Shown one piece after another: positions 4,497-47,227 of a DNA stretch of 64,000 nt. The notes under the pieces were generated by a model. The model made no database searches and was not told where the DNA came from. It worked only from the letters and a program-made list of their open reading frames with translations. Each line of letters opens with the position of its first letter. The stretch's first letter is position 1. Position numbers and translations under genes: made by a program. Source of the DNA: Kineobactrum sediminis (GTDB taxonomy: Bacteria > Pseudomonadota > Gammaproteobacteria > Pseudomonadales > Halieaceae); NCBI RefSeq assembly GCF_002868715.1, contig NZ_PKLZ01000008.1:1-64000 (forward strand), in the 5' to 3' direction.

Positions 4497-4534
4497 TGAT
4501 CCTACCCACCAACAGTGGACACGCCCCTAAGCGA
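4497..4534. repeat. Right terminal inverted repeat of the IS3 element
   Basis: Read inward from 4497, this end shares the blocks TGATCCT, CCCACCA, TGGACAC and TAAGCGA, in the same order and spacing, with the opposite end at 7528-7565. By eye about 29 of 38 positions agree. The orfB stop codon at 4527-4529 lies within it. Confidence 0.8.
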
Positions 4535-4711
4535 CTTGTTTTGCCTCAAACGCCGCAGGGCTGATATAGCCATTGGCGCTGTGTCGACGATCTAGATTGT
4601 AGTCCACTTCAATGTACTCGAATACCGCTTGTCTCATTTCTTCCCTGGTGCCAAAACGTTCACCATGGATCGCCTCCACCTTAAGCGAATGAAAGAAGCT
4701 CTCAGCGCAGG
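4527..4711 (-). CDS. IS3 transposase OrfB, 3' exon (catalytic E part)
   Basis: The final 61 codons of OrfB. Joined to base 6522, the first codon becomes GCC and the sequence reads [20 protein letters not shown]. This supplies the catalytic Glu of the DDE triad and then the usual IS3 tail ([20 protein letters not shown]). Combined length is 289 residues, normal for the family. The exon has no start signal of its own. A longer unspliced open frame from 5063 reads through intron sequence and is not a gene. Confidence 0.9.
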
Positions 4712-4753
4712 GTCGTCGAGTAGCCCGGCGGAACCTCCCCGCCAGGCTCTCAC

Positions 4754-4788
4754 AGAACCGTACGTGAGCCTCTCGACTCATACGGCTC
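4754..4788 (-). ncRNA. Group II intron domain V
   Basis: The minus strand folds as a 35-base hairpin: GAGCCGTAT pairs with the ACGGTTC end, with an internal bulge and a terminal loop around GTCGAGAGG. This is the conserved catalytic domain V form, with the AGC triad near its base. It is followed by a domain VI-like stem containing CTGGCGG and CCGCCGGG and an unpaired A before the last bases. It marks the 3' part of the ribozyme, which looks intact. Confidence 0.85.
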
Positions 4789-5995
4789 TTGTCATCCAGC
4801 CTTGATGCTGCCAATGGACAAAAAGCCCAGGGGCACGCCGGGCGACTGCCTTTAACCACGCATTCGCGCGAGTGAGCCGACGACGCAACCGTTTGAACTT
4901 TCGCATTGCCCAGCCAACCAGCGCAGAATTGATGTGGTTGAGGACAGAATGGAGTGCTGATCGACAAAAACGACCGTAGTAGTTGATCCAGCCTGCGATG
5001 ACAGGATTGAAGCGCCGAGCCAATTCGTCCAGATCCGCATATGTACGCGCCTTGAGCTGCCATCCCCGCCGTACTTCTTGGCGTAGGGCCCTGGCGGCCT
5101 TCTGGCTGATCGCGGGGCTGAAGCTCACAAAGAACTTGCCCTCTCGATTCCGCGCCGATCTAGGTCGAAACGTATACCCCAGAAAATCAAAGCTTTGACA
5201 CTCCCAGCTCTCAGGCTGACGTGAGTCTTTGCAGTAAACAACTCCCGTCTTTTCGTTCGATACGCTCTTTGATCCAATTTAGCTGCTTGAACGACCGGCA
5301 GTGCACGACAATATCGTCGGCATACCGCTCGAAGTGAATGGCAGGGAAATTCTCCTTCATCCACAGATCAAACGCTAAATGAAGAAAGATATTGGCAAGC
5401 AGTGGACTGATTATGCCGCCTTGAGGTGCACCGATTGAGCGCGGTAGCCGCTCCCCGCCCTGCAATTGAACATCCGCCTGCAACCATCTCTCGATGTACA
5501 GAAGGACCCATTTGCAGTCGGTGAACCACCGAACTGCACGCAACACAAGCTCATGATTCAATGTATCAAAAAACTTGGAAACATCCAGATCAAGCACCCA
5601 ATTGTCCCGCCAATAACGTTGTCGTGCCCGCGCAACCGCATCCAGAGCAGAGCGCCCAGGGCGATACCCATAGGAATCCTCATGAAAATGAGGCTCCACC
5701 AGTGGTTCAAGGTACCGTTTAGCGGCTGCCTGCGCTAGCCGGTCACTGATAGTCGGAATCCCGAGCTGTCGGACACCTCCATCGGATTTCGGTATTTCAA
5801 CCCGAAGTACCGGCGGAGGCATGTAACTACCCGACGACATCCGATTCCAGATCTTGTACGCCGATTATCTCTGTCTTTATCGAACTCCTCCATTGTTTGC
5901 CGATCCACACCGGGCCCACCTTTGGCACGCTTAACCTCCCAGTAGGCGCTCCACACCAGTGACTTCGGTATATCAAAGACCTTGTTCAAGCTCAC
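4778..5995 (-). pseudogene. Group II intron reverse transcriptase/maturase, degenerate
   Basis: Three frames in succession give one intron-encoded protein. The N-terminus (VSLNKVFDIPKSLVWSAYWE) is in one frame. The reverse-transcriptase core, with GYRPGRSALDA, FFDTLNHEL, GAPQGGIISPLLANIFLH and the catalytic FERYADDIV, is in a second. The end of the RT domain and the GIIM maturase domain ([14 protein letters not shown]) are in a third. The first shift, near 5859, looks like loss of one base. The second, near 5255, appears to remove about ten or more residues after KERIER as well as changing frame. No HNH endonuclease is seen at the C-terminus. The protein should be non-functional. Confidence 0.85.
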
Positions 5996-6521
5996 ATGCT
6001 CCTCCCGTTTCCGGTTGGCATACGAGCTGAACCACATGACGTAGCCCCTTCGCTCCACAACCTTTCAGCCGCTTCAACACTACTACGGGCTACTCCGCCC
6101 CTGTGCCTCGCATCGGTACTCTTCTCCTTCAGGGGGCTGCCCTTTCGGATTTCTCCCTTATCATCGAGGCGACAGGTTCCCACGTTCCCCATGAGAGCCT
6201 GAAATGGACTCACGCTGCCTCCACACCGGAAACCGCCCAACCCGTAAACAGGTAACGTCTGGACTTGCCCCGAGCCAACAACGCTGCTCGGTTTTGATGT
6301 CAGTTGAATTGCTTTTCGACGCGTCATCAGCAGTTCACTTACGTTCGTCTTTCCATTCCACACATGACGTCTTAATGGACGCCTTTTCATTGACGCTCAC
6401 CACCATGACTCTTAACCACAGCAGCTCAACGTAGTTTGAAACCAGGTCCTGCAACCCGATTCCGAGGGGCCCACCCTCATCTCCCATGGAACACCACTTC
6501 TATGAAGTGTTCGTGGCACAC

Positions 6522-7206
6522 CATTATCGTAGCAATTGCCTTTGCCACTCATGCTGCAAATCAAGCCATGCTTGGCCAGCAGCGCCTGGTAAGCAGCTGA
6601 GCAATATTGGCGGCTGCCACGATCGGAGTGCACAATCATGCCGGTGGGCATGCCACGGCGCCAGAGCGCCATCTTCAGCGCATCGCAGACCAGTTGGGCG
6701 GTCATCCGCTCCGATATCGCCCAACCCACTACCATGTGTGAGTACAGGTCAATGATCGTGGCGAGATACAGCCAGCCTTCATCGGTCCAAAGGTAGGTGA
6801 TGTCGCCGACGTATTTCTGGTTTGGCGCTGTCGCGGTGAAATCCTGCTTCAACAGGTTGGGTGCCACTGGCAGATTGTGACTGGAGTTTGTGGTTGCCTT
6901 GAATCTCTTCGCGGCCTTGGCCCTCAAACCCTGACGACGCAGGCTGTTGGCCACTGTTTTGCGATCATGCTGGTGCCCGGAGTCTGCTAGCTCCAGCGTC
7001 AATCGAGGCGCCCCGTAACGACTCTTCTTGCGTTCGAAAGCCTCTTTCACCACCTCGTCCATATAGCGTCTTTCTTCCTGAGGGAGCGAGGGCTGCTGTT
7101 GTCGCTCGCGCCACCGATAGAAGCCACTGCGGGACACCTTCAGCACTCGGCCCATCGTCGTCACTCTAAAATTGCCTGCATTCTGGTCCATAAACACATA
7201 CGTCAT
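6522..7206 (-). CDS. IS3 transposase OrfB, 5' exon (catalytic DD part)
   Basis: The upstream 228 codons of OrfB. They cover the HTH_21 region, then the rve integrase core with the first catalytic Asp in VGDITYLW and the second in VHSDRGSRQYC, ending at GKGNCYDN plus the first base of the next codon. The catalytic Glu is not here: the coding sequence is cut at base 6522 by the group II intron, whose GTGTG starts at 6521. Without splicing, translation would run into intron sequence and end near 6412, giving a 264-residue protein with no catalytic Glu. With splicing it joins the exon at 4527-4711 in frame. Confidence 0.9.
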
Positions 7207-7502
7207 TTCAGGCTTTTGGCGAAGTATGTTGCCGCCTTTTTTACTATGGCGAGCTCCTCTGCCTGCTCGGCCAACTGGCGCTTGAGGCGGGCAATCTCGA
7301 CAGCCTGTTGCTGTTCAACCTCAGACCGATCCTGAGCTGCCCGGGCTTTTGTTCTCCAGCTATACAGCTGCGATTCCTGCAATCCAAGCTCTTTGGCGGC
7401 CTTGGCCACTCCGACCTTTTCCGCCAGGGCCAATGCTTCGGCCCGGAACTCCGGAGTGTGTTGCCGCCGTGGCGTTGATTTCTTTTCTGTTTGCTTTGTC
7501 AT
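7203..7502 (-). CDS. IS3-family transposase OrfA
   Basis: A 99-residue DNA-binding protein. The N-terminal helix-turn-helix includes RRQHTPEFRAEALALAEKVG and AAKELGLQESQLYSWR; a leucine-rich coiled coil follows (ARLKRQLAEQAEELAIVKKA), typical of the HTH_Tnp_1/OrfA family. Near its end the codons for VKKA contain the slippery run A AAA AAG. This is the usual site for a -1 ribosomal frameshift that makes the OrfAB fusion transposase in this family. The orfA stop overlaps the orfB ATG. The gene appears intact. Confidence 0.9.
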   Translation of the reverse strand: MTKQTEKKSTPRRQHTPEFRAEALALAEKVGVAKAAKELGLQESQLYSWRTKARAAQDRSEVEQQQAVEIARLKRQLAEQAEELAIVKKAATYFAKSLK

Positions 7503-7527
7503 GATTCACCTCTGTAGCGTAGTTTAC

Positions 7528-7565
7528 TCGCTTAACAGGGTGTCCATCACTGGTGGGCAGGATCA
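7528..7565. repeat. Left terminal inverted repeat of the IS3 element
   Basis: Partner of the end at 4497-4534, read inward from 7565 on the minus strand. It lies just upstream of orfA and starts immediately after the interrupted codons of the flanking orfA remnant. Confidence 0.8.
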
Positions 7566-7688
7566 TAATGCTGTTTCTCCGATTTCCAGAGACCGGCTGG
7601 CTTCCTCCACGGAGTAACCCTGGTTAAGCACCAGGCTGGCAGCTTCACGTTTGAACTCGGTTGCAAATGACCTGCGTCGTTTTACCAT
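7563..7688 (-). pseudogene. Second IS3-family orfA, truncated by the IS3 element
   Basis: From ATG 7688 the reading is MVKRRRSFATEFKREAASLV and continues to EIGETAL, the start of a different IS3-family OrfA. After 40 residues the coding sequence meets the left end of the intron-bearing element at 7565 and ends in a TGA formed by that end. Upstream at 7741-7752 the sequence TGTAGTGGTCTA looks like the outer end of this second element, so the whole remnant covers about 7563-7752. The rest of the element is not found on the far side at 4496. Confidence 0.75.
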
Positions 7689-7873
7689 TGAACACCTCTC
7701 TGGGGGCGATTTTACCACCCATATTGGTGTCCGGTTTCAGTAGACCACTACAATTTCTCTCACGCCCCTTACCCGAAAGCCGGTAAATAATTCCATTGTT
7801 TTGGCCAGAAAACTGCAAACTCAGCTCAACCGCCACCAATGCCTGAAGTGCTGATTCAACGATAAATAAGTTA

Positions 7874-8569
7874 TCAACCACTTACAAAAGTCTCACAGAC
7901 CCGAAAATCAACTGGTTCGTCAATATCAAAAGACCTGGCCCTAGGCATTATCGATGCCCGCAACCGGTCAGTGAACAATGTCTTCTTATTCATCAAAGTT
8001 TCTGCCCTAGCCACATAAACAGCCCCATTTAATCGATACTCTATTCGGTAGCCCTGAGACCGATTACCCGACAAATCAACGCCGCTGAAAGTCGAGTGAT
8101 CATCGATAACACCAACCCAGGACGTCGGGTGATCAACCTCGCAAACGCTTACAACGGTGTCGCTGCAACCCGTTTCCTCAAACACCTTTACCGCTGCCAG
8201 GATATCATCCGTATTGCGAAGCGGAGATGTCGGCTGTAAAAGAATCAAAATATCCGCTGCATAACCGGCTGCATGCTCTGCTTTAATAGCATCAATCAGC
8301 ACATCCGCAGTTGTTGCAGTATCAGTTGCCAGCTCATCAGGGCGCTTGTGAGCGATGACACCCTGCTCTGCGTATTCCTGTGCCAGGCTTAAAATTTCGT
8401 CGTCATCGCTTGTTACCAAAATGCGTGCATCCAAGGATGTTGCTAAGGCTGTTTCGATGGACCAGCAAATCAGAGGCTTGCCGGCAAGTGGAAGTATGTT
8501 TTTCCGGGGTAGCCGCCTGCTTCCACCCCTGGCAGGGATCACCATAAGTACTTTGTGGGAATCATCCAT
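7874..8569 (-). CDS. legF: CMP-nonulosonate (acylneuraminate) cytidylyltransferase
   Basis: A 231-residue enzyme that activates a nonulosonic acid with CTP to give the CMP-sugar used by the sialyltransferase. It shows the nucleotide-binding start MVIPARGGSRRLPRKNI, the LLQPTSPLR motif near residue 95, and the closing SFDIDEPVDF, all typical of NeuA/PseF/LegF. The longer open frame starts at 8611, but the ATG at 8569 is preferred because it overlaps the upstream stop (AATGGATGA) and begins just before the conserved strand. Last gene of the legionaminate-type pathway before the insertion scar. The cognate acid is inferred from the neighbours; neuA is the alternative name. Confidence 0.8.
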   Translation of the reverse strand: MDDSHKVLMVIPARGGSRRLPRKNILPLAGKPLICWSIETALATSLDARILVTSDDDEILSLAQEYAEQGVIAHKRPDELATDTATTADVLIDAIKAEHAAGYAADILILLQPTSPLRNTDDILAAVKVFEETGCSDTVVSVCEVDHPTSWVGVIDDHSTFSGVDLSGNRSQGYRIEYRLNGAVYVARAETLMNKKTLFTDRLRASIMPRARSFDIDEPVDFRVCETFVSG

Positions 8570-9617
8570 TGAAGCCACTCGCCGCCTCGCCTTGGGCACG
8601 CTGGAAGTCATCCATCCGCCCTATATCCAACCAATACTCGTGGATCGGAAACATGTAAACCGGCTTCTCTGCGTCGATCTGCTGCTCCAGTAGCGTGGGC
8701 ATATCAATTCTGATGTCAGGCCCAACACTTTTAACGAGTTCAGGGTTGAGCAAATAGATACCGGCATTCACGAAAAATTTCTGTATCGGTTTCTCAACCA
8801 TCGATTTGATCTGTGTACCCTGGCTGGTAATTACACCATAGGGAACTTGATACTCATATTCCCTCACACACATGGTTGCAGCGCTACCATGATTTTCGTG
8901 AAACTCCAGAAAGCTGTGTATGTTTAGCGATGTCAGTAAATCTCCGTTCATCATAAACAGCGGCAGATCTATTTCATCATGCGGCAAAAGGCCCAGAGCA
9001 CCACCTGTCCCCAGAGGTTCGTCTTCGTAAACGTACTGAATACTGATCCCCCATTTTTCACCATTACCAAAGTGCTCGCGAATCACTTCCGGCATGTAGT
9101 GGGTCGATATGTAGAAGCGGTGAAAGCCAGCATCTACAAAATTGAGAAGGATCTGCTCCAAAATTGGCTTGTCACCCACTTTCAACATTGGCTTGGGGCA
9201 ATTGTTAGTCAATGGGCGCAGCCGAGTACCAAACCCTCCTGCCATTAGAAAGACTGGGTTGTCATGGCGGTGTTTGTTCAGCAGATCATGTAAGTTCGCG
9301 AGACCAACTACTTTTCTATAGCTATCCACCAGCGGTAACTGAAGCACCTCGTACTGCTCCATGAGTGCCAGAAGACGACTCTCAGTCCAGCCTTGCCCCG
9401 CAGTTTTGGGATTGGCATTCATCACCTTGTTAACCGGCGCATCCAGCGGTAAGCGTTTCAGCAAAGCGCGTCGAACATCACCATCTGTGAGCGTACCAAG
9501 TAAAACGTCGGCTTCATCCACAACCAGAACAATACGAAGGGCTGCTTTGTCCAGAACCGCAATGGCTTGTTCCAGGCTCACGTCAGGATTCACTAATGCG
9601 TTACGCCACTGCTTCAT
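8562..9617 (-). CDS. ptmE: CBS-domain sugar-1-phosphate nucleotidyltransferase (PtmE-like)
   Basis: A 351-residue two-part protein. Residues about 1-115 are a pair of CBS motifs (LTDGDVRRALLKRLPLDAPV and LPLVDSYRKVVGL). Residues about 120-350 are a nucleotidyltransferase with MAGGFGTRLRPLT, PKPMLKVGDKPILEQIL and the metal-site MNGDLLT. In Campylobacter jejuni the equivalent, PtmE, makes GDP-GlcNAc as the entry sugar of legionaminate synthesis. The same CBS-plus-transferase layout in the same gene neighbourhood argues for that role. The CBS pair may bind nucleotide and regulate activity. Start ATG 9617 overlaps legG by four bases. Confidence 0.78.
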   Translation of the reverse strand: MKQWRNALVNPDVSLEQAIAVLDKAALRIVLVVDEADVLLGTLTDGDVRRALLKRLPLDAPVNKVMNANPKTAGQGWTESRLLALMEQYEVLQLPLVDSYRKVVGLANLHDLLNKHRHDNPVFLMAGGFGTRLRPLTNNCPKPMLKVGDKPILEQILLNFVDAGFHRFYISTHYMPEVIREHFGNGEKWGISIQYVYEDEPLGTGGALGLLPHDEIDLPLFMMNGDLLTSLNIHSFLEFHENHGSAATMCVREYEYQVPYGVITSQGTQIKSMVEKPIQKFFVNAGIYLLNPELVKSVGPDIRIDMPTLLEQQIDAEKPVYMFPIHEYWLDIGRMDDFQRAQGEAASGFNG

Positions 9618-10807
9618 TGCTGTTCCCTTGCTTTGTAAGTACCCGAAAGTGACAAATTGTAAAAAGATTTTTTCAATAGGTTATCGAGCGAGGAGTCTGC
9701 AAGTACCTGCACAATCGCTTTACTCGCACCACCATTACCATATGGGTTGTCGACGGCATCAAGCGAGCTCCTAAAAGTTGGCGAGTACAATCTATCGATT
9801 GCCTCAAGAATAGCGGCTTTAGTGGGTTCACAATCAATTACGCTCGCAGCTTTCAGACGCCCTTTTTGCCGATCTCCGATATTGACAGTACCAATGTTAA
9901 AAGCCGGTGCTTCCAATAGACCACTTGAAGAATTACCAATAACACCGTCTACCTGAGCCATGCAGGAAAAATATCGAAGTTGGCCAAGAGAGGCATACAT
10001 GCTGGCATTGTCATGAGAACTTACGAACTCATGAACTATCTTGGTTAGTTCACGTCCGCCAGTGTCAGCGTTGGGCATAGTGAAGATGAGGTGAGTCTGC
10101 TTTAGCTCGGCTAGAGCATTAAGCAGGGCATTCAGTTGCTCTTTAGAACTTTCCTCCCTTTCAAGAGTCACCGGATGAAAGGTGATCAGTAGGTTCTTAT
10201 CATCCAAAACAGCGTCGATTGACTTTTCCAGCTCTTCCCGGCTCAACAACTCAAGACGCTTAATAGCATCGATACCCATTCCCCCGACATTGAACACACG
10301 CTCCGGAGACTCACCTAGTTGAATGACACGGTGCCGATACTCTTCCGCTGCCACAAAATGCAGGTGAGACATTTTTGTAATCGAATGCCGGATAGCCTCA
10401 TCAAACGCACCCTCTGTCGTTTCTCCACCATGCAGGTGTGCGATCGGAATCCCTGCAATCAAAGCTGCAGATGTCGCTGAAAAAATCTCGAACCGGTCAC
10501 CCAATACCACAACGATATCAGGCTTCAAGCGTTGGTAGGCATCTGCAAAGCCTATAACACCAAGCCCCATAGATTTCGTGACAGCTGTGCTCGTGTCGGA
10601 ACTTAGCAGCATTTCAACTTTTATATCAATGATGAAACCAGCAGCTTCAATTTCCTGGTAGGTAGATCCGAACTCTGGTGACAGGTGCATTCCGGTTACA
10701 GCAACCTGGAGTTCAAGCGCCGGATGTTGCCGAATATCTTCCATTAAGTAGCGCAAAAGACCAAACTCGGCTCTAGTACCAGTGACAACACAAACCTTTC
10801 GGGTCAC
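9614..10807 (-). CDS. legG: Hydrolysing NDP-sugar 2-epimerase (LegG/NeuC family)
   Basis: A 397-residue enzyme that removes the nucleotide and inverts C2, releasing the free mannosamine-type sugar used by the synthase. Family signs are the N-terminal VCVVTGTRAEFGLLRYLM, VVVLGDRFE near residue 95, HLHGGETTEGAFDEAIRHSI, and the late GNSSSGLLEAPAF and VNIGDRQKGR motifs. Length matches NeuC/LegG/NnaA. Overlaps of four bases on both sides place it in one operon with legI and the nucleotidyltransferase. The GDP-sugar substrate is inferred from the PtmE-like gene and not read from the protein. Confidence 0.85.
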   Translation of the reverse strand: MTRKVCVVTGTRAEFGLLRYLMEDIRQHPALELQVAVTGMHLSPEFGSTYQEIEAAGFIIDIKVEMLLSSDTSTAVTKSMGLGVIGFADAYQRLKPDIVVVLGDRFEIFSATSAALIAGIPIAHLHGGETTEGAFDEAIRHSITKMSHLHFVAAEEYRHRVIQLGESPERVFNVGGMGIDAIKRLELLSREELEKSIDAVLDDKNLLITFHPVTLEREESSKEQLNALLNALAELKQTHLIFTMPNADTGGRELTKIVHEFVSSHDNASMYASLGQLRYFSCMAQVDGVIGNSSSGLLEAPAFNIGTVNIGDRQKGRLKAASVIDCEPTKAAILEAIDRLYSPTFRSSLDAVDNPYGNGGASKAIVQVLADSSLDNLLKKSFYNLSLSGTYKAREQQ

Positions 10808-11808
10808 AACTCTATCAACTCATCTTCGTCAAAGCCCCGGGGTGCTTTACGACCAAGGACCTCATCCCATCGCATGGGAGAAACGCCTGTACCGGGCCGC
10901 TTTGCAACAAGGTTTTCAGCGCTGAAAAGTTCGCCCCGTCTGATTGGCTGAGCCGCTACCAGCGACTTACGGGCTATAGGTTTGTTCTTTAGTTCACTGG
11001 AGCCCGGGCGTTTAATGCCGTCTCCCATAGCTTTTTCTATGTTACGGATGGCCGATACCATGGCCTTTAGCTCATCTGGTTCAAGGCTTGCGCGATGATC
11101 GGGGCCTGGCAAGGAGCGGTTCAACGTGAAATGCTTTTCAATCACTGATGCGCCCAGCGCAACCGCTGCAATGGGGACTTCGATACCTTGCGTGTGATCA
11201 GAGTATCCAATTCCGACACCAAAGGCCTTACCCATGTTAGCCATAGCGTTTAGATTCACTTCATCCATGGGCGTTGGGTACTCTGTGGTGCAATGCAGAA
11301 CAGTAATGCACTCCCTAGGGGTGCCGGCTTTTTCAACCGCGTCTATGGCAGCTTCGATCTCACCCATCGTGGCCATCCCAGTGGAGAGGAATACCGGCTT
11401 ACCGTGCCGGGTCAAATATCTGAGATAAGGCAGATTGGTCAACTCTCCAGAGGGGACTTTCACATAATCCAGCGCGTGCAGATCTTCGAGTAAATCAATG
11501 CTCTCATGGTCAAAGGCTGTTGAGAAAAATCCGATCCCGTATTTCTTACATTCATCTATTAATTCGACATGATTCTCTCGGGTCAACTCAAGTTGTCGGA
11601 TCATATCCCCCTGAGATTCCGCAGGGTCGGTTGTGTTTTTTTGGTAGTCCGCTTTCGGGGCAGATTTGGAAACGATCTTATTCGCAATAAACGTCTGGAA
11701 TTTGACAAGGTCTGCACCGGCTTCTGCCGCAGCAGCAATCAGCTTTTTCGCCAGAACCATGTCACCGTTATGGTTAACACCCGCTTCTGCTATGATCAGA
11801 GTTTTCAT
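10804..11808 (-). CDS. legI: Nonulosonic acid synthase (LegI/NeuB family)
   Basis: A 334-residue enzyme that condenses phosphoenolpyruvate with a six-carbon sugar to make the nine-carbon acid. The TIM barrel starts with IIAEAGVNHNG, contains KFQTF, VPSGELTNLPYL, LSTGMA and HCTTEYP, and has the barrel-end GYSDHT and EKHFTLN motifs. Residues from about 275 form the SAF/antifreeze-like domain (ARKSLVAAQPIRRGE) that closes the neighbouring active site in the dimer. The length is slightly short but normal. Embedded in the operon with four-base overlaps on both sides. LegI is preferred over NeuB because of the legB/legC neighbours. Confidence 0.87.
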   Translation of the reverse strand: MKTLIIAEAGVNHNGDMVLAKKLIAAAAEAGADLVKFQTFIANKIVSKSAPKADYQKNTTDPAESQGDMIRQLELTRENHVELIDECKKYGIGFFSTAFDHESIDLLEDLHALDYVKVPSGELTNLPYLRYLTRHGKPVFLSTGMATMGEIEAAIDAVEKAGTPRECITVLHCTTEYPTPMDEVNLNAMANMGKAFGVGIGYSDHTQGIEVPIAAVALGASVIEKHFTLNRSLPGPDHRASLEPDELKAMVSAIRNIEKAMGDGIKRPGSSELKNKPIARKSLVAAQPIRRGELFSAENLVAKRPGTGVSPMRWDEVLGRKAPRGFDEDELIEL

Positions 11809-12443
11809 TTAATCCTCTTTGCCGGCACACCTACATAAATGCCATTTGGTTCGCAGTCTTCGGTCACCACAGCACCGGAACCGATAACCGAATTCATGCC
11901 AATAGTAAGTCGGCGCTTGTCGTCACCCTGATTAATGACGGCACCTGCTCCAACCCAAACGCCTTGTCTTAGGTGAACATTGCCCGATATATTGGCTCCA
12001 GGAGCGACGTGGACAAAGTGCTCAACCACGCAGTCGTGTGCGATGGTGGCGTTTTGATTGAATAGCACAAAGCTTTCAACTGCGATGTTACTAGTAAAAC
12101 GAACACCTGCGGCAACTATGACGCCCTGAGCTTCATTGATTACTTTCCGCTGCCTGTAACCAAATGTGGCGCTTGGATGAACGAGGTTGGAGAAATCTAA
12201 TTTGCCCTCAAATCGAAGAGCCACTTTTCGCCGAATTTCGTTGTCACCAATCCCAATCACAAATGGATAATGAGAATAAGCTCCAACCTCTTTTTCGAGA
12301 ATGACTTCTCCGGCACCTATCCAACCCGCAACCTCGATCTCATCTCGCGCAACATAAAACGGTTCAATCCCACAAGCCCGAGCAACGTCACCCGCTTCTC
12401 GACCCATACCAGAAGTTCCGAAAATACCAATACGCTTTTTCAT
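11805..12443 (-). CDS. legH: Sugar O/N-acetyltransferase, left-handed beta-helix (LegH/NeuD type)
   Basis: A 212-residue protein with an N-terminal Rossmann-like half (KRIGIFGTSGMGREAGDVA) and a C-terminal hexapeptide-repeat helix (FTSNIAVESFVLFNQNATIA, HVAPGANISG, VWVGAGAVINQG). It ends in IYVGVPAKRI, typical of PglD/NeuD/LegH. The His in IAHDCVV is the likely catalytic base. In the legionaminate pathway this enzyme acetylates the 4-amino sugar made by the aminotransferase. Four-base overlaps with both neighbours. PglD-like bacillosamine synthesis is the main alternative, but the legI/legG genes favour legionaminate. Confidence 0.82.
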   Translation of the reverse strand: MKKRIGIFGTSGMGREAGDVARACGIEPFYVARDEIEVAGWIGAGEVILEKEVGAYSHYPFVIGIGDNEIRRKVALRFEGKLDFSNLVHPSATFGYRQRKVINEAQGVIVAAGVRFTSNIAVESFVLFNQNATIAHDCVVEHFVHVAPGANISGNVHLRQGVWVGAGAVINQGDDKRRLTIGMNSVIGSGAVVTEDCEPNGIYVGVPAKRIK

Positions 12444-13588
12444 AGACGCTCAAGCACTACACTGCTCGGCAAATTCACCACCCGCTCTTCCAGCCATTGT
12501 GCGTTGGTTAGATCCCCTCGCCGGCAATTTTGGTACATTATCAGATGATTCATCAATGCCCATATAGGGCGGGTCATCACCCCTTTTTTATTCGTACTAT
12601 CGAGCAGACTATCCCGGTCTTCTTTGCTTTCACAAATAACTGCATTAAGCCAATAGTTAGAGCGGCAATCGACGGGCTCTTTCACAAACTGTAGCGCACC
12701 GCCTTTAAAAAAGGTCTCGTAGGCAGCGGCAAGCATTCGCTTGGCTTCTATAAAGGAGCCCAGCTGTTCTAACTGGGCGCAGCCAAGCGCAGCATTCAGG
12801 TTGGGTAGCCGATAGTTGTAACCCACTTCATCATGAATGTATTCGTAGGTATGGGGTTTTTTGGCCGTTGTTGTCAGGTGTTTAGCTCTATCCGCCATAG
12901 CCTTTCCCGCCAAAATCATGCCGCCACCGCCAGTGGTCATAATTTTGTTGCCGTTAAAGCTCAAGATGCCAATAGCTCCAAAAGTACCGGTATGTTGACC
13001 TTTATAGAAGCTGCCAAGGGATTCCGCGGCATCCTCAACCATGTGGAGACCCCAGCGCTGAGTCACCTCACATAACCCATCCAGGTCGGCAGGATGACCA
13101 AAGGTGTGCATCGGTACGCAGGCTCGTATGGCTTTACCATCCGATTTAGTGCGGCACACTCCCTCAGTATCGACTTGAGCGTTTTCGTCCAGCCAGGCTT
13201 CCAGTGCGTCTGGCGACAAACCCAGCGTATCGCGATCGACATCTACAAATACCGGTTCAGCGCCGCAATAGGCAATAGCATTACAAGTCGCTACAAACGT
13301 CAGAGGCTGTGTGATTACCAAATCCCCGGGCTCAACTCCAGTCAGCTTCAAGCCGACATGCAACGCGGCCGTACCGTTCACAGTGGCAACCGCCCGGGGC
13401 GACCCTGTGTAATTCGCCATGTCTTTCTCAAAGCGATCTACATAGGCGCCAACACTGGAAACAAACGTGGATTCTATAGTGTCAACCACATACTCTTTCG
13501 CTCGGCCCGGGAAAACCGGCGCGTGAAGTGGAATAAATTCGCTGGTACCGAAGTAATCCCGAACAAACTCAGTCAGGTGCTTACTCAA
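12440..13588 (-). CDS. legC: PLP-dependent sugar aminotransferase (LegC, DegT/DnrJ family)
   Basis: A 382-residue pyridoxal-phosphate enzyme that aminates C4 of the 4-keto-6-deoxy nucleotide sugar. Cofactor-site motifs are NGTAALHVGL (phosphate-binding), VEDAAESLGS (Asp to the pyridine nitrogen) and the Schiff-base lysine in SFNGNKIMTTGGGG. The N-terminal FIPLHAPVFPGRAKEYV is characteristic of the LegC/neighbour subfamily. Seven bases separate it from the dehydratase, and it overlaps legH by four. Cytoplasmic. Confidence 0.85.
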   Translation of the reverse strand: MSKHLTEFVRDYFGTSEFIPLHAPVFPGRAKEYVVDTIESTFVSSVGAYVDRFEKDMANYTGSPRAVATVNGTAALHVGLKLTGVEPGDLVITQPLTFVATCNAIAYCGAEPVFVDVDRDTLGLSPDALEAWLDENAQVDTEGVCRTKSDGKAIRACVPMHTFGHPADLDGLCEVTQRWGLHMVEDAAESLGSFYKGQHTGTFGAIGILSFNGNKIMTTGGGGMILAGKAMADRAKHLTTTAKKPHTYEYIHDEVGYNYRLPNLNAALGCAQLEQLGSFIEAKRMLAAAYETFFKGGALQFVKEPVDCRSNYWLNAVICESKEDRDSLLDSTNKKGVMTRPIWALMNHLIMYQNCRRGDLTNAQWLEERVVNLPSSVVLERL

Positions 13589-13595
13589 AATGGCC

Positions 13596-14786
13596 TCACA
13601 TCTTACTGTCGAGGTATTTGCCGGTTTCTTTATGGCCGAAATCCGGAATTAGGCGAAAAAATAGTTGCACGATATCTTCTTTTCTCCAGGCTAGCTTATG
13701 TTTCATCGACGCTATGCGCTCCTCGAATTCACTCAGCAGCTCCTCATCAAATATAGCTTCATTCTTAATGATCCCCATGTTGTCAAAACGTTCCATGTCC
13801 AGCACTTCTTGATCTGTGTAGAACTCTTCGAAATCCTTTTCTCCAGTGGTATCACTATTGCTAAACAGGCACGGCCACTTCCCTTGCTCCGGAAGGGTCT
13901 TTGCCAACTCTCTAGCCTCATCCTCATCACGGCACAGTACCGGCTCCAGCCCCTTCTGTCTGAGGTACTTCACGGCGATATCAGCAAAAGAGACCAGGTG
14001 AAGCACTTCGCTCAGCTTCGGGAAAAAAATATCCCTGTTATCACCAAAAATGCAGGACATCAGGCAAAGCTCGCCAGATTCTTTTGGCGTAACAAAGTAA
14101 CGCCGGACATCCATGGGGGCAACGATGGGTTGCCGTTTTTCGAGGCGTTGGTTAAAGCCATGAAGCAATGAGCCATCCGAAAACGCCACGTTGGCGAACC
14201 GCGCAGTGGAAATTTTCATACCCTGGCTACGGCGCATCAGGAACATTTCCATGATGCGCTTCGACGCACCCATCATATTCACTGGATTCGCCGCCTTATC
14301 CGTGGACACACAGAAATACTTGGTCACGCCTGCCTCACTTGCCTGCCGCACAGTTTTGTCTGTGTTAAACACATTGACGTCGACCATACGCATGAGCGTA
14401 AAAGGATCTTCCTCACTGCGCACATGCTTAAGCGCTGACAGATTAAGAACGTAGTCGTAACCGCCATCGGCCTTGAAAAACGCATCGTACTCAATGGAAC
14501 CAATATCTAGCGCGAAAGTACGGAAATCACCCGGGATATAACCAAAACTACTTCGAATGTCGCGAACCAGCTCCACCAAATTGTTTTCACTAATATCGAC
14601 AACGTGGAGCCTTGTAGGGGCACGTTTGAAGATTTCTTTGGTGACAGCCTGGCCTATCGAGCCGGCACCGCCGAGGATTAGGAATCGAGAAGCGCCAACA
14701 ATTTCGGAGAGTTCGGCTTCATGGTTTTGGATGTCGGTGGAGAAGAGCTCTTTGTCTCTGTCTATCAGACTTAGAATTGAATTCAT
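13596..14786 (-). CDS. legB: NDP-GlcNAc 4,6-dehydratase (LegB)
   Basis: A 396-residue extended short-chain dehydrogenase. The NAD site is FLILGGAGSIGQAV (residues about 32-45) and the catalytic region is CVSTDKAANPVNMMGASKR. Met-x-x-x-Lys replaces the usual Tyr-x-x-x-Lys, as is normal in the FlaA1/PglF/WbpM/LegB group. It lacks the membrane helices of WbpM and PglF, so it is the soluble type. It performs the first committed step, making the 4-keto-6-deoxy sugar for LegC. First enzyme gene of the pathway, 15 bases after the flippase gene. Confidence 0.85.
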   Translation of the reverse strand: MNSILSLIDRDKELFSTDIQNHEAELSEIVGASRFLILGGAGSIGQAVTKEIFKRAPTRLHVVDISENNLVELVRDIRSSFGYIPGDFRTFALDIGSIEYDAFFKADGGYDYVLNLSALKHVRSEEDPFTLMRMVDVNVFNTDKTVRQASEAGVTKYFCVSTDKAANPVNMMGASKRIMEMFLMRRSQGMKISTARFANVAFSDGSLLHGFNQRLEKRQPIVAPMDVRRYFVTPKESGELCLMSCIFGDNRDIFFPKLSEVLHLVSFADIAVKYLRQKGLEPVLCRDEDEARELAKTLPEQGKWPCLFSNSDTTGEKDFEEFYTDQEVLDMERFDNMGIIKNEAIFDEELLSEFEERIASMKHKLAWRKEDIVQLFFRLIPDFGHKETGKYLDSKM

Positions 14787-14801
14787 ACTTCATTCCAAAA
14801 G

Positions 14802-16079
14802 TTAATTCCTCAATGCAAACCAAGGCATGGAGTGTCGTTTCTGAGCGACATACCATGAAAGTAAAAAACGGAGTGCCATTGAGAAGCAAAAGGCGTATGC
14901 CGCGCCCTCAAGGCCGAGGTGACGAACTAAGACAAGCAGCAGGAAAAAATTAACCAAACCCGCAAGCACGCTTGCTACAGACAGGAGGCCCGTTCGCTTT
15001 GAGAAAAAAATGTAATTTGTAACCATTAAATACATGCCACTAAAGACGTGCCCCAATATGAGCCATCCAATGACGTCGCCAGCTCTGGCGTAATCTGCTC
15101 CGGCAACAAATAATATCAACCAGGGCCCAACGAGGAATCCAACACCTGCCCCCAAAAGGATAAAACAAAACCAAGCATAGGTATAACGAACAATCTGTCG
15201 CTTTTCAGCTTCATCATCTCGCTTTAGTCGCTCAAAAAGCCACGGTACGTAAGCTTTATTGATAGCGTCAAATACTAACGATATAGCCATCCCGAACTGC
15301 ACCGCAACCATGTAAATACCTGCTTCAGCCAAACCTAGTTCAGCGCTGATCACGAAACGGTCTACGGTGGTTAACAGGAATACACCTCCCACATGCGGGA
15401 TGAGTGGAACACCGAACCTAAGCGCTTCTCGAATATAGTCAGCCCGCCACACAAAAAATTTGAGTAGATCATCTCTTTTCAATAGCCACAACGCTAAAAG
15501 TCCAAAACTCCCCGCCGCCACAATCTGCGCGAGAATACGACCGTCTGATCCTTGCAAGAACACAACAACCAGAAGAAGTGACAGACCAACGTTAAGGAGA
15601 CTCTTGGAAATCTGCAGCGCTCCATAGGATTTGGCCTTTTTTCTGACTTGCCACTGCCCCAGCCGAATCTGAGCGATTATGGTTGCTGCTGTTGTCAGGC
15701 CGGCTAAAAGCACCCATTTAGTGTCAAGACCTAGCCATTGCCCAAATTCACCACTGAACACAAACAGAATACTGAGCATAATCAACGTCGTTACAAGCAG
15801 GATTTGCAAGCAAGAGCCGATAAATTCTTTTAAGTCATTTGCCGCCAAGTTTCCATCATAAAACTTCCGGCCGGCAGCGCCATGAAGACTCAGCCCGATG
15901 AACGCAGTTAAGGCCCCAAGCAAAGTTTGGAACATGGCAACTTGACCGTACTCCTCCGGGCTAAGATAACGTGTCAATACTGGAAGTAGCGCGAAAGGTA
16001 TGGCTGCATTCAGAATATTGGAAGCCAAGTATACAGCCGAGCCTGCCAAAAACGTATTGCCTTTTAATTTGGAAAACAA
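14802..16079 (-). CDS. wzx: Polysaccharide flippase, Wzx/MOP superfamily
   Basis: A 425-residue inner-membrane protein with about twelve to fourteen hydrophobic segments. It opens with AVYLASNILNAAIPFALLPV and LTRYLSPEEYGQVA, which is typical of Polysacc_synt (Wzx/RfbX) flippases. It would move the lipid-linked repeat unit from the cytoplasmic to the periplasmic face for the Wzy-like polymerase. The open frame begins with a TTG at 16079 and no better ATG is nearby. It stands first in the biosynthetic block, downstream of a 417-base gene-free leader. Confidence 0.82.
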   Translation of the reverse strand: MFSKLKGNTFLAGSAVYLASNILNAAIPFALLPVLTRYLSPEEYGQVAMFQTLLGALTAFIGLSLHGAAGRKFYDGNLAANDLKEFIGSCLQILLVTTLIMLSILFVFSGEFGQWLGLDTKWVLLAGLTTAATIIAQIRLGQWQVRKKAKSYGALQISKSLLNVGLSLLLVVVFLQGSDGRILAQIVAAGSFGLLALWLLKRDDLLKFFVWRADYIREALRFGVPLIPHVGGVFLLTTVDRFVISAELGLAEAGIYMVAVQFGMAISLVFDAINKAYVPWLFERLKRDDEAEKRQIVRYTYAWFCFILLGAGVGFLVGPWLILFVAGADYARAGDVIGWLILGHVFSGMYLMVTNYIFFSKRTGLLSVASVLAGLVNFFLLLVLVRHLGLEGAAYAFCFSMALRFLLSWYVAQKRHSMPWFALRN

Positions 16080-43379: not shown

Positions 43380-43519
43380 GGATTCCTTCCATTCCGAGTA
43401 AATTAGTCAAGTATTCTAGCAAACTTCTGCCGGGCTGCGCGAGTAGTGTTTACACACAGCCAAAGTCGATCCGAATCTGCTAGAATGCGCCCCGTTTAGT
43501 ATGGACCGAATCTCTAAGG

Positions 43520-46500
43520 ATGACGGGAACAAATATGGCGAGTAACAAGCAGGCAGAGCATCCACTGGCACGGGCGCTGAAAGAGCGTATTCTGGTGCTG
43601 GATGGGGCCATGGGCACCATGATCCAGGCTGAGGAGCTGCAGGAAGCCGATTATCGCGGCGAACGGTTCCTGGACCACCCGGCAGACCTGAAGGGCAACA
43701 ATGACCTGCTGTCGCTCACCCGCCCGGACGTGGTCGCCCGTATTCACCGCCGTTACCTGGAGGCCGGCGCCGACATTATCGGCACCAACACCTTCAACAG
43801 TACCGCGGTGGCGCAGGGCGACTATGATCTCTCCGGCGTGGCCGTGGAACTCAACCTGGCGGGGGCCAGGATCGCCCGCGAAGTGGCCGATGAGCTCACT
43901 GCCCGGGAGCCTGCCAAACCCCGTTATGTGGCGGGTGTACTCGGCCCCACCCCGCGCACGGCCTCCATCTCGCCAGATGTTAACGACCCGGGCGCGCGCA
44001 ACATACACTTTGCGCAACTGCACGATGACTACGCCGCTGCCACCCGCGCGCTGATTGAGGGCGGTGTCGACCTGCTGATGATCGAAACCATTTTCGATAC
44101 CCTCAACGCCAAGGCCGCCATCTTTGCGGTGCACTCGGTGTTCGAGGAACTGGGCATGGAAGTGCCGCTGATGATCTCCGTCACCTTCCCCGATATCAGC
44201 GGCCGGGTACTGTCCGGGCAGAGCCCAGAGGCCTTCTGGAACGCCATCGCCCACGCCAACCCGCTCATTGTGGGTAGCAACTGCGGGCGCCGGTTCAAGG
44301 AGATCCAGCCGTTCCTGGAAGAGTTGTCCACGGTGGCCGATTGTTATTTCAGCGCCCACCTCAATGCCGGCCTTCCCAATGCCTTTGGCGAATACGATGA
44401 GACCCCCGAAGACATGTACGCCGACTTTCGCAGCTTTGCCGAGCGCGGCTTTCTCAACCTGGCCGGTGGCTGTTGCGGCACTACCCCCCATCACATTGAA
44501 GCCATTTCCCGCGCGGTACAGGGCGTCGCACCCAGGCCCCTGCCCGAGCGCGAGCCGGCCTGCCGCCTGAGTGGGCTGGAACCGTTCAACATCACCGCCG
44601 ACAGCCTGTTCGTGAATATCGGCGAACGCTGCAATGTCACCGGTTCCGCGCGTTTCAAGCGGCTGGTGCTGGACGGTAACTATGAAGCGGCGCTGGATGT
44701 CGCCAGGCTGCAGGTGGAAGACGGCGCCCAGATCATCGACATCAACATGGACGAGGGCATGCTCGACGCCGAAGAGGCGATGGTGACCTTCCTCAACCTG
44801 GTGGCCTCGGAACCGGATATCTCCCGGGTGCCGATCATGGTGGACTCCTCGCGCTGGTCGGTGATTGAGGCAGGCCTGCGCTGCATCCAGGGCAAGCCGG
44901 TGGTGAACTCCATCAGCCTGAAATCCGGTGAGGCGGAATTCATAGAGCAGGCCACCCTGTGCAAGCGCTACGGTGCCGCTGTGGTGGTCATGGCTTTCGA
45001 CGAAAACGGCCAGGCGGATAACCTGCAAAAGCGCAAGGCGATCTGCCGGCGCTCCTGGGACCTGCTGGTAGACACCGTGGGCTTCAACCCCAACGACATC
45101 ATTTTTGACCCGAACATTTTCGCCGTTGCCACCGGTATTGAAGAACACAACAACTACGCGATGGACTTCATCGAGGCCACCCGCTACATCAAGGATTTCC
45201 TCCCCGGTGCACTGATCTCCGGCGGGGTGTCCAATGTCTCGTTTTCCTTCCGTGGCAACAACATGGTACGCGAGGCCATTCACTCCGTATTCCTCTACCA
45301 CGCCATTCGCGCGGGCATGGATATGGGCATCGTCAACGCCGGTCAGCTCGCGATCTACGACGACCTCCCCACGGAGCTGCGCGATGCGGTGGAGGATGTC
45401 ATTCTCAACCGCCGCAGCGACGGCACCGAGCGCCTGCTGGAACTGGCCGAGCGCTACCGTGATGATGGCGGCGGCAAGGCCCGGGTGGAAGACCTCAGCT
45501 GGCGCGAGGCCCCCGTGACCAAGCGCCTTGAATATGCGCTGGTCAAGGGCATCAACACCTGGGTGGTGGAAGATGCCGAGGAGGCCCGCCAGCAGTTTGC
45601 GATGCCCATCGAAGTGATTGAAGGGCCTCTGATGGACGGCATGAACGTGGTCGGCGACCTGTTTGGCGAGGGCAAGATGTTCCTGCCCCAAGTGGTCAAG
45701 AGCGCCCGGGTGATGAAGCAGGCCGTGGCGTATTTGCAGCCCTACATTGAAGCCAGCAAGTCCGACAGCACCCAGACCAACGGTAAAATCCTGATGGCCA
45801 CGGTGAAGGGCGATGTGCACGATATCGGCAAGAACATTGTCGGGGTGGTACTGCAGTGCAATAACTTCGAGGTGATCGATCTCGGCGTGATGGTGCACTG
45901 CGATGAAATCCTGCGGGTTGCGCGGGAACAGAAGGTCGATATCATAGGCTTAAGCGGCCTGATTACACCGTCCCTGGATGAAATGGTGCATGTGGCCAAC
46001 GAGATGCAACGCCTGGACTTCCAGGTGCCGCTGATGATTGGCGGTGCCACCACATCCAAGGCCCACACCGCAGTTAAAATCGAGCCCCGCTACAGCAACG
46101 ACCTGGTGGTCTATGTACCCGATGCCTCGCGCAGCGTGTCGGTGGCGACCTCCCTGCTGGGCGAGGGCAAGGGCAAGTACGTGGCGGAGAGACGGCAGGA
46201 ATACACTACCGTGCGCGAGCGCGTGGCCAACCGCAAGCCCCGCACCCGGCTGATGCGTTACCAGGAAGCCGTCGCTCACGCGCCGGAGTTGAACTGGTTT
46301 GACTACACGCCGCCCAAGCCCTCCTTTATCGGCACCCGGGTATTTGAAAATTTCCCCCTGGCTGACCTGGTGGACACCATCGACTGGACGCCATTTTTCA
46401 TCTCCTGGGAGCTGGCCGGCAAATACCCCAACATTCTCGAGGATGAGATTGTGGGTGAACAGGCGCGGGAACTGTTTGCCGACGCCCAGGCCATGCTCAA

Positions 46501-47227
46501 GCGCATTATCGACGAAAAGCTGATCACTGCCAGCGGCACCATCGGCTTCTGGCCCGCGGCCCGCAACGGCACCGACGACATCGACCTGTTTAGTGATGAA
46601 AGCCGCCAGGAGACCGTGGCTACCGTGCATCACCTGCGCCAGCAAATGGCCAAACCCAACGGTGAACCGAACCTGTGCCTGGCGGATTATGTGGCACCGA
46701 TGGCCTCCAGCGCGCCGGATTACCTGGGCGCATTCTGCGTGACCACCGGCCACGGCGTGGATGCCCTCTCCGACCGGTTTCTGGCGGACCACGATGACTA
46801 CAACAGTATTCTGCTCAAGGCCCTGGCAGATCGTTTGGCGGAAGCCTTTGCCGAATACCTGCACAGGCTGGTGCGCACCGAATTGTGGGGCTACGCACCG
46901 GATGAGCAGCTGAGCTCCGCGGACCTTATTCGTGAGCGTTACCAGGGTATTCGTCCCGCGCCGGGCTATCCGGCCTGCCCGGATCACACCGAAAAAACCA
47001 TCCTGTTTGAGCTGCTGAAGGCACCCGAGACCTGCGGCGTTACCCTGTCAGATAATTTTGCCATGTCGCCCGCCTCCTCGGTCAGTGGATTTTATTTTTC
47101 CCACCCCCAGGCGCGCTACTTTGCGGTGGGCAAGATCGGCCGCGACCAGGTGGCTGACTTTGCGCAGCGCAAGGGCATGACAACCGATGAAGTGGAACGC
47201 TGGCTGGCCCCGGTACTGGATTACTGA
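43520..47227 (+). CDS. metH: Cobalamin-dependent methionine synthase
   Basis: A 1235-residue, four-module enzyme that methylates homocysteine from methyltetrahydrofolate. Homocysteine domain: [11 protein letters not shown], with zinc ligands in [10 protein letters not shown] and [11 protein letters not shown]. Folate domain: [20 protein letters not shown] region and FDENGQAD. Cobalamin domain: the B12-ligand [16 protein letters not shown] and [13 protein letters not shown]. The C-terminal AdoMet reactivation domain ends with [13 protein letters not shown]. The ATG at 43520 is used, though the Met at 43535 is possible. A 794-codon open frame antisense to this gene is a shadow. Confidence 0.96.

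Follow-up and report, generated by a model that had tools for sequence, protein, structure and literature searches.

The 64,000-nt stretch of the Kineobactrum sediminis genome analyzed here (the window) carries an IS3-family insertion sequence whose transposase gene is interrupted, inside the catalytic DNA-x-x-E motif, by an RmInt1-type group II intron. The intron occupies exactly the same site as three relatives, its open reading frame is broken, it is present in a single copy, and its history is separate from that of the IS. Judging from the sequence, it is very probable that this copy is a degenerate resident, most likely immobile and spliced poorly or not at all, with the IS switched off.

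An intron in the catalytic motif of an IS3-family transposase

The relevant features, all on the minus strand, are the following.

4497..7565 (3.07 kb), minus: IS3-family insertion sequence (imperfect terminal inverted repeats and transpos_IS3)
7203..7502, minus: OrfA, HTH_Tnp_1, 99 aa (profile match)
6522..7206, minus: OrfB 5' exon with the rve domain and the catalytic Asp residues, ending ...GGCAATTGCTACGATAATG
6522..6528, minus: IBS1, GATAATG (the Asp-Asn codons plus G)
4715..6521, minus: group II intron, RmInt1-type (IIB3/class D), 1807 nt, GTGTG ... CTACTCGAC (Rfam, alignment with the relative L011, RmInt1 IEP)
6362..6478, minus: D1-D4 core, RF01999, 107 bits (Rfam)
6277..6283, minus: EBS1, CGTTGTT, in the hairpin loop CCGAGC-AGCGTTGTTG-GCTCGG (complementarity to IBS1)
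4778..5998, minus: pseudogene of the intron-encoded RT/maturase (IEP), RVT_1 and GIIM domains (deletions relative to L011)
4715..4790, minus: domains V and VI, RF00029, 62.5 bits, no non-standard pair (Rfam)
4712..4714, minus: extra GAC (tandem GACGAC) at the 3' splice site (relatives and empty sites without GAC)
4527..4711, minus: OrfB 3' exon, beginning CCTGCGCTGAGAGC (A-C-A-Glu-S-F-F), rve_2/rve_3

The host element shows the hallmarks of the IS3 family, namely, the OrfA/OrfB arrangement, a DDE transposase with the IS3-type rve core and terminal inverted repeats at 4497 and 7565, which are imperfect (TGATCCTrCCCACCA...TGGACAC at both ends in the IR comparison); its match to the NCBIfam model transpos_IS3 scores 266 bits (cut-off, 160 bits). 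No target-site duplication of the 3-5 bp expected for this family is seen, the flanks GGAACTT and TAATGCT sharing none, and the flank may have been rearranged, as the element abuts a truncated second IS.

The insertion point lies inside the codon that follows Asp-Asn of the catalytic motif. Removal of 4712-6521, which joins 6522 to 4711, produces an uninterrupted OrfB of 289 aa that carries GNCYDNACAESFF and regains the expected NCYDNACAESFF, and 14 intron-free relatives read uninterrupted through the occupied codon. The earlier note placed a group II intron inside the active site of an IS3 transposase and held that its excision restores OrfB; the Rfam domains, the reading of OrfB and the relatives with filled and empty sites bear out both claims.

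As for the surroundings, the second IS3-type element is a 5' fragment (7566-7760, minus; OrfA start MVKRRRSFATEFKREAASLVL, end TGTAGTGGTCTACTGAAACCGGACACC) that is cut off at its border with the intron-bearing IS. The adjoining run of surface-sugar genes, named by eye (7874-16079, minus), includes CMP-sugar transferase-like, NeuC-like, NeuB-like, aminotransferase, sugar dehydratase and flippase-like ORFs, which suggests a polysaccharide island bordered by IS remnants. Elsewhere in the window, a 794-aa open frame (43514-45898, minus) is antisense to a methionine-synthase-like gene (43520-47227); this frame is probably spurious, a product of high G+C.

Relatives at the same codon and the separate histories of intron and IS

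The same codon is found both empty, in the 14 relatives mentioned above, and filled, in three. A scan with the intact RT fragment recovered L011, from a Gammaproteobacteria bin (92% amino acid identity to the fragment), and L012, from a Nitrospirota bin (81%), and L090 turned up among 392 searched genomes from the order of the host. The introns of L011 and L012 interrupt an IS3 OrfB at the same codon and in the same phase as in the window, and the L090 OrfB exons join to ...NCWDNAPTERFF...; the IEPs of all three are open. L011 and L012 are both binned metagenomic sequences, and the organism behind L011, a contig of 5.4 kb, is uncertain. In a mirror image of the window, L011 combines an intact intron ORF with a frameshifted OrfB (about 1690). 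Intron identity to the window is 93.1% for L011, 79.3% for L012 and 67% for L090 (blastn match only), and the host transposases are 74, 53 and 37% identical, respectively, to that of the window. The four introns form a single clade (support 0.992) in a tree built from 98 IEP sequences, and the other clades target other sites. This lineage, inserted at the catalytic-Glu codon, is new here. In viral contigs, neither further copies of the exact junction pattern nor IEP relatives were found; phage records yielded a single weak hit, covering the 5' portion of the intron. Among the same-family genomes listed, none besides the host has an intron match, and the plasmid introns of the same type that were examined occupy other sites.

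A random insertion that merely looks spliceable, or a mis-assembly, might be entertained given the draft state of the genome and the missing target-site duplication of the IS, but three other assemblies carry an intron at the same codon, 14 relatives have it empty, and EBS1 matches the site at 7/7 positions. For the insertion itself, these filled and empty sites and the EBS1 match refute chance or artefact, and we assign this explanation a negligible probability.

At 4-fold degenerate sites, the window and L011 differ at 70 of 129 positions in OrfA plus OrfB and at 36 of 167 in the IEP (Fisher p = 7e-9), with silent sites of the IS ∼2.5 times as divergent as those of the intron, so the intron must have arrived later in at least one of the two. 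This comparison shows that the intron moves between ISs rather than travelling with one, contrary to the suggestion that the intron would use the IS to get around. The alternative, that intron and IS are inherited and moved as a unit, with the IS as the vehicle, might draw on the location of the intron wholly within the IS and on the presence of the pair in both the window and L011. However, besides the excess divergence of the IS, on which movement as one unit was rejected, the same intron lineage resides in ISs only 37-53% identical to that of the window, and the genomes that the window, L011 and L012 come from each lack a second intron copy. We regard such a composite element as highly improbable.

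Intron boundaries and the 3' splice site

The GTGTG 5' end at 6521, domains V and VI, and the CTACTCGAC end identify a group II intron. The D6 model places its 3' end at 4715 and the same-site relatives agree, ending ...CTCGAC, with the exon following directly in L011 and L012 (CCTGCG... or CTGTAG...). In the window, an extra GAC lies in frame between this canonical end and the 3' exon at 4711. The empty site of the 14 intron-free relatives reads GAYAAYGCCTGYGC, or close variants, without GAC, so the triplet at 4712-4714 is not ancestral exon. A cut at the canonical site would yield ...DNGPCAES, one residue too many, and would leave G as the first exon base; exact restoration of OrfB requires the second AC, 3 nt farther from the branch point than in the relatives. 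This AC, at 4712, could serve as the 3' splice site because the 3' exon would then still start with C (IBS3), which every same-site relative has there; C or T is found at this position in 31 of the 36 RmInt1-type introns with a clear end. The earlier note described the ends and domain V as intact and the transposase as exactly spliceable. The 5' end is confirmed and domain V looks intact, but an intact 3' end is not supported, given the extra GAC, and the intron of the D6 model and of the relatives ends at 4715 rather than 4712; ‘exactly spliceable' holds only conditionally, on use of the second AC.

The ribozyme domains are 95.6-98.9% identical to those of L011. Because D1-D4, D5 and D6 look intact, low-level self-splicing independent of a maturase appears possible.

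A broken maturase in a single-copy element

Relative to L011, the RT/maturase frame is broken twice, by a 1-nt deletion at 5859/5860 and a 35-nt deletion near 5254, and is left in three pieces, in which only RVT_1 and GIIM, and no endonuclease domain, were detected. The 1-nt deletion and the extra GAC could be assembly errors, which is unlikely for the 35-nt deletion. Both intron and IS are single-copy in the host genome (4.06 Mb, a 39-contig draft, 99.99% complete), other IS matches being short chance matches. A second RVT_1 domain was not found in the sequenced contigs, where the search, which an unsequenced replicon would escape, recovers only the window copy; a maturase acting in trans in the same genome was accordingly rejected. 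Introns of the RmInt1 kind need their own maturase in vivo (PMC4238363, PMC3123198). With the maturase broken and no other RVT_1 domain present, the intron is best seen as an immobile relic, poorly spliced or unspliced. The 3' end at 4715, the pseudogene state of the intron ORF, and the single copies of intron and IS with no other RVT_1 had all been overlooked in the earlier note.

These features bear on the idea, also raised there, that transposition depends on RNA splicing and that the intron acts as a brake on the IS. The anatomy and the relatives speak for the dependence, and a brake is plausible for the intact relatives, although it is not a new idea (PMC4238363, PMC6003770); for this copy, splicing itself is doubtful. 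A functional brake would mean that low-efficiency splicing, through self-splicing or an unseen maturase, yields an occasional transposase and so throttles the IS. This would be in line with the preserved ribozyme domains and EBS1/IBS1 pairing (wobbles included), the available exact in-frame junction, and the report that exon ligation of RmInt1 itself is less than 1% in vivo (PMC4238363). Against it stand the broken IEP in a genome with no other RVT_1, the extra GAC at the 3' splice site, and the single copy of the IS, which gives no hint that it transposed recently in this genome. On balance, a working brake seems unlikely here, and a relic is the preferred reading.

Comparison with known systems

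The intron kind and the idea of a brake are both already published, for RmInt1 in ISRm2011-2 and E.c.I4 in IS3 elements. RmInt1 resides in ISRm2011-2 (IS630 family) of Sinorhizobium meliloti, and its IEP is 49% identical to that of L011 over 430 aa; the L011 IEP is alignable to the RmInt1 C-terminus (strain 1021) and its ORF ends three residues later. The two share an RT/maturase without an endonuclease domain and an EBS1 in a D1 hairpin loop, and RF01999 matches RmInt1, the window, L011, L012 and L090 but not the class A intron E.c.I4. Full-length IEP identity and the shared Rfam subtype thus support assignment of the window lineage to the RmInt1 type (IIB3/class D). RmInt1 also interrupts a transposase gene, immediately behind a Phe-Ile-Asp-Glu motif, but this is the Asp-Glu motif of IS630, whereas the target in the window is the Asn-Ala-x-x-Glu motif of IS3; moreover, RmInt1 is active and multicopy, unlike the single window copy with its broken IEP. 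The ISRm2011-2 transposase requires RmInt1 splicing, and the brake was proposed there (PMC4238363). RmInt1 was located in strain 1021; by its IBS1, none was found in S. meliloti ml59 and the other replicons searched. In strain 1021, the natural RmInt1 site (L178, reverse complement, 936) immediately follows FIDE, apparently the IS630 transposase motif with the first catalytic Asp; L177, a related copy, shows silent change there (GAT GAA A).

E.c.I4 of Escherichia coli likewise occupies fixed positions in IS3-family transposases, those of IS629, IS911, ISEc16 and ISEc31 (PMC3522654), but it belongs to class A (PMC3552965), uses another codon and encodes an IEP, YkfC, only 33% identical to that of L011. 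Both K-12 and strain Z217-2 carry it in the IS911 OrfB, split at GDVTY|, just after the first catalytic Asp, and near-full copies are present in 2,190 of 5,426 E. coli genomes. RmInt1-type introns of Bradyrhizobium (L015, L017, L018, L065, L077, L078 and L123) are also inserted in IS3-family OrfB, but ∼11 codons past the catalytic Glu (ERLWRxxKYEEV|YLRAY), and form a separate clade. The Ll.LtrB intron, in the relaxase gene of a Lactococcus lactis conjugative plasmid, restrains expression of its host element, a published brake on conjugation (PMC6003770); its host is not an IS, and it acts by re-attacking the spliced mRNA.

EBS1-IBS1 pairing and third codon positions

In RmInt1-type introns, a D1 hairpin ∼240-265 nt from the 5' end has a loop with complementarity to the final 7 bases of the exon. 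In the window, EBS1 CGUUGUU pairs with IBS1 GATAATG at 7/7 positions (four Watson-Crick and three G-U pairs), as does L011 EBS1 with GACAACG (7/7, one G-U) and L012 EBS1 CGUUAUU with GATAATG (7/7); L090 forms 6/7 pairs. Between L011 and L012, a G to A change in EBS1 faces a C to U change in the target.

The tolerance of wobble was assessed at IBS1 positions 2-7 of 20 introns with five coding targets, namely, IS3 DN|A, IS3 after Glu, the YxDD box of other reverse transcriptases, IS66, and RmInt1 in IS630 at FIDE| (EBS1 of L015 and L019 was read from the homologous loop position). G-U pairs occupy 18 of the 40 third codon positions and none of the 80 first and second positions (Fisher p = 1e-10, a nominal value given the shared ancestry of the introns), a pattern that in part follows simply from silent variation of the targets. 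The departures at third positions are mostly tolerated wobbles (18, versus 4 mismatches), which depends on G or U being present opposite them in EBS1 (19 of 21 positions over 10 distinct EBS1). This regularity across five targets is new here; no paper on wobble or third-codon-position matching of EBS1 was found in the literature searched, which omits most subscription journals.

It is conceivable, with a chance slightly short of even, that RmInt1-type introns read protein motifs of mobile elements, many EBS1 loops being built on an Asp codon plus another conserved codon after it (GAY-AAY in IS3, GAY-GAY in the YADD of other intron RTs, GAY-CAY in IS66 and GAY-GAR in IS630). EBS1 G would face degenerate pyrimidines and U degenerate purines, such that synonymous drift would spare homing and a few EBS1 changes would retarget the intron between enzymes.

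Introns of the same type lie inside the YxDD box of another RT gene in L019 (1901), L041 (3303), L046 (3305), L092 (1377), L124 (2806), L134 (2953) and L135 (2306); the genes hit are apparently of the group II intron type, hence nested introns. Others lie at a conserved K[YF]xDH|LPLYR-like motif (L013 3302, L021 3307, L022 1467 and L125 2460) that looks like IS66 TnpC.

Probable origin and fate of the window copy

The scenario we favor starts with an intact ancestor that would have retrohomed, by reverse splicing, into an IS3-family transposase gene, its EBS1 loop CGUUGUU pairing with GAYAAYG, the Asp-Asn-G codons just before the catalytic Glu. This stretch would be kept by selection on the protein, and at either third codon position a C or a U would be tolerated by the facing EBS1 G. 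Intact members of the lineage are predicted to be spliced by their own maturase, probably inefficiently, giving a functional transposase. In this genome, given the broken maturase, the lack of another RVT_1 gene to act in trans and the extra GAC, the intron is most likely immobile and poorly spliced or unspliced, and the IS off. We thus infer retrohoming as the mode of arrival, followed by loss of splicing and silencing of the transposase.

If protein motifs are indeed what these introns read, an endonuclease-less retroelement tracks very divergent hosts via a codon stretch that the hosts cannot change. Pairing indifferent to silent variation would help explain the nesting of such introns in transposases and in the RTs of other introns, and targeting of this kind makes retargeting testable. 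The window copy represents an end state of the association, with both partners probably stuck.
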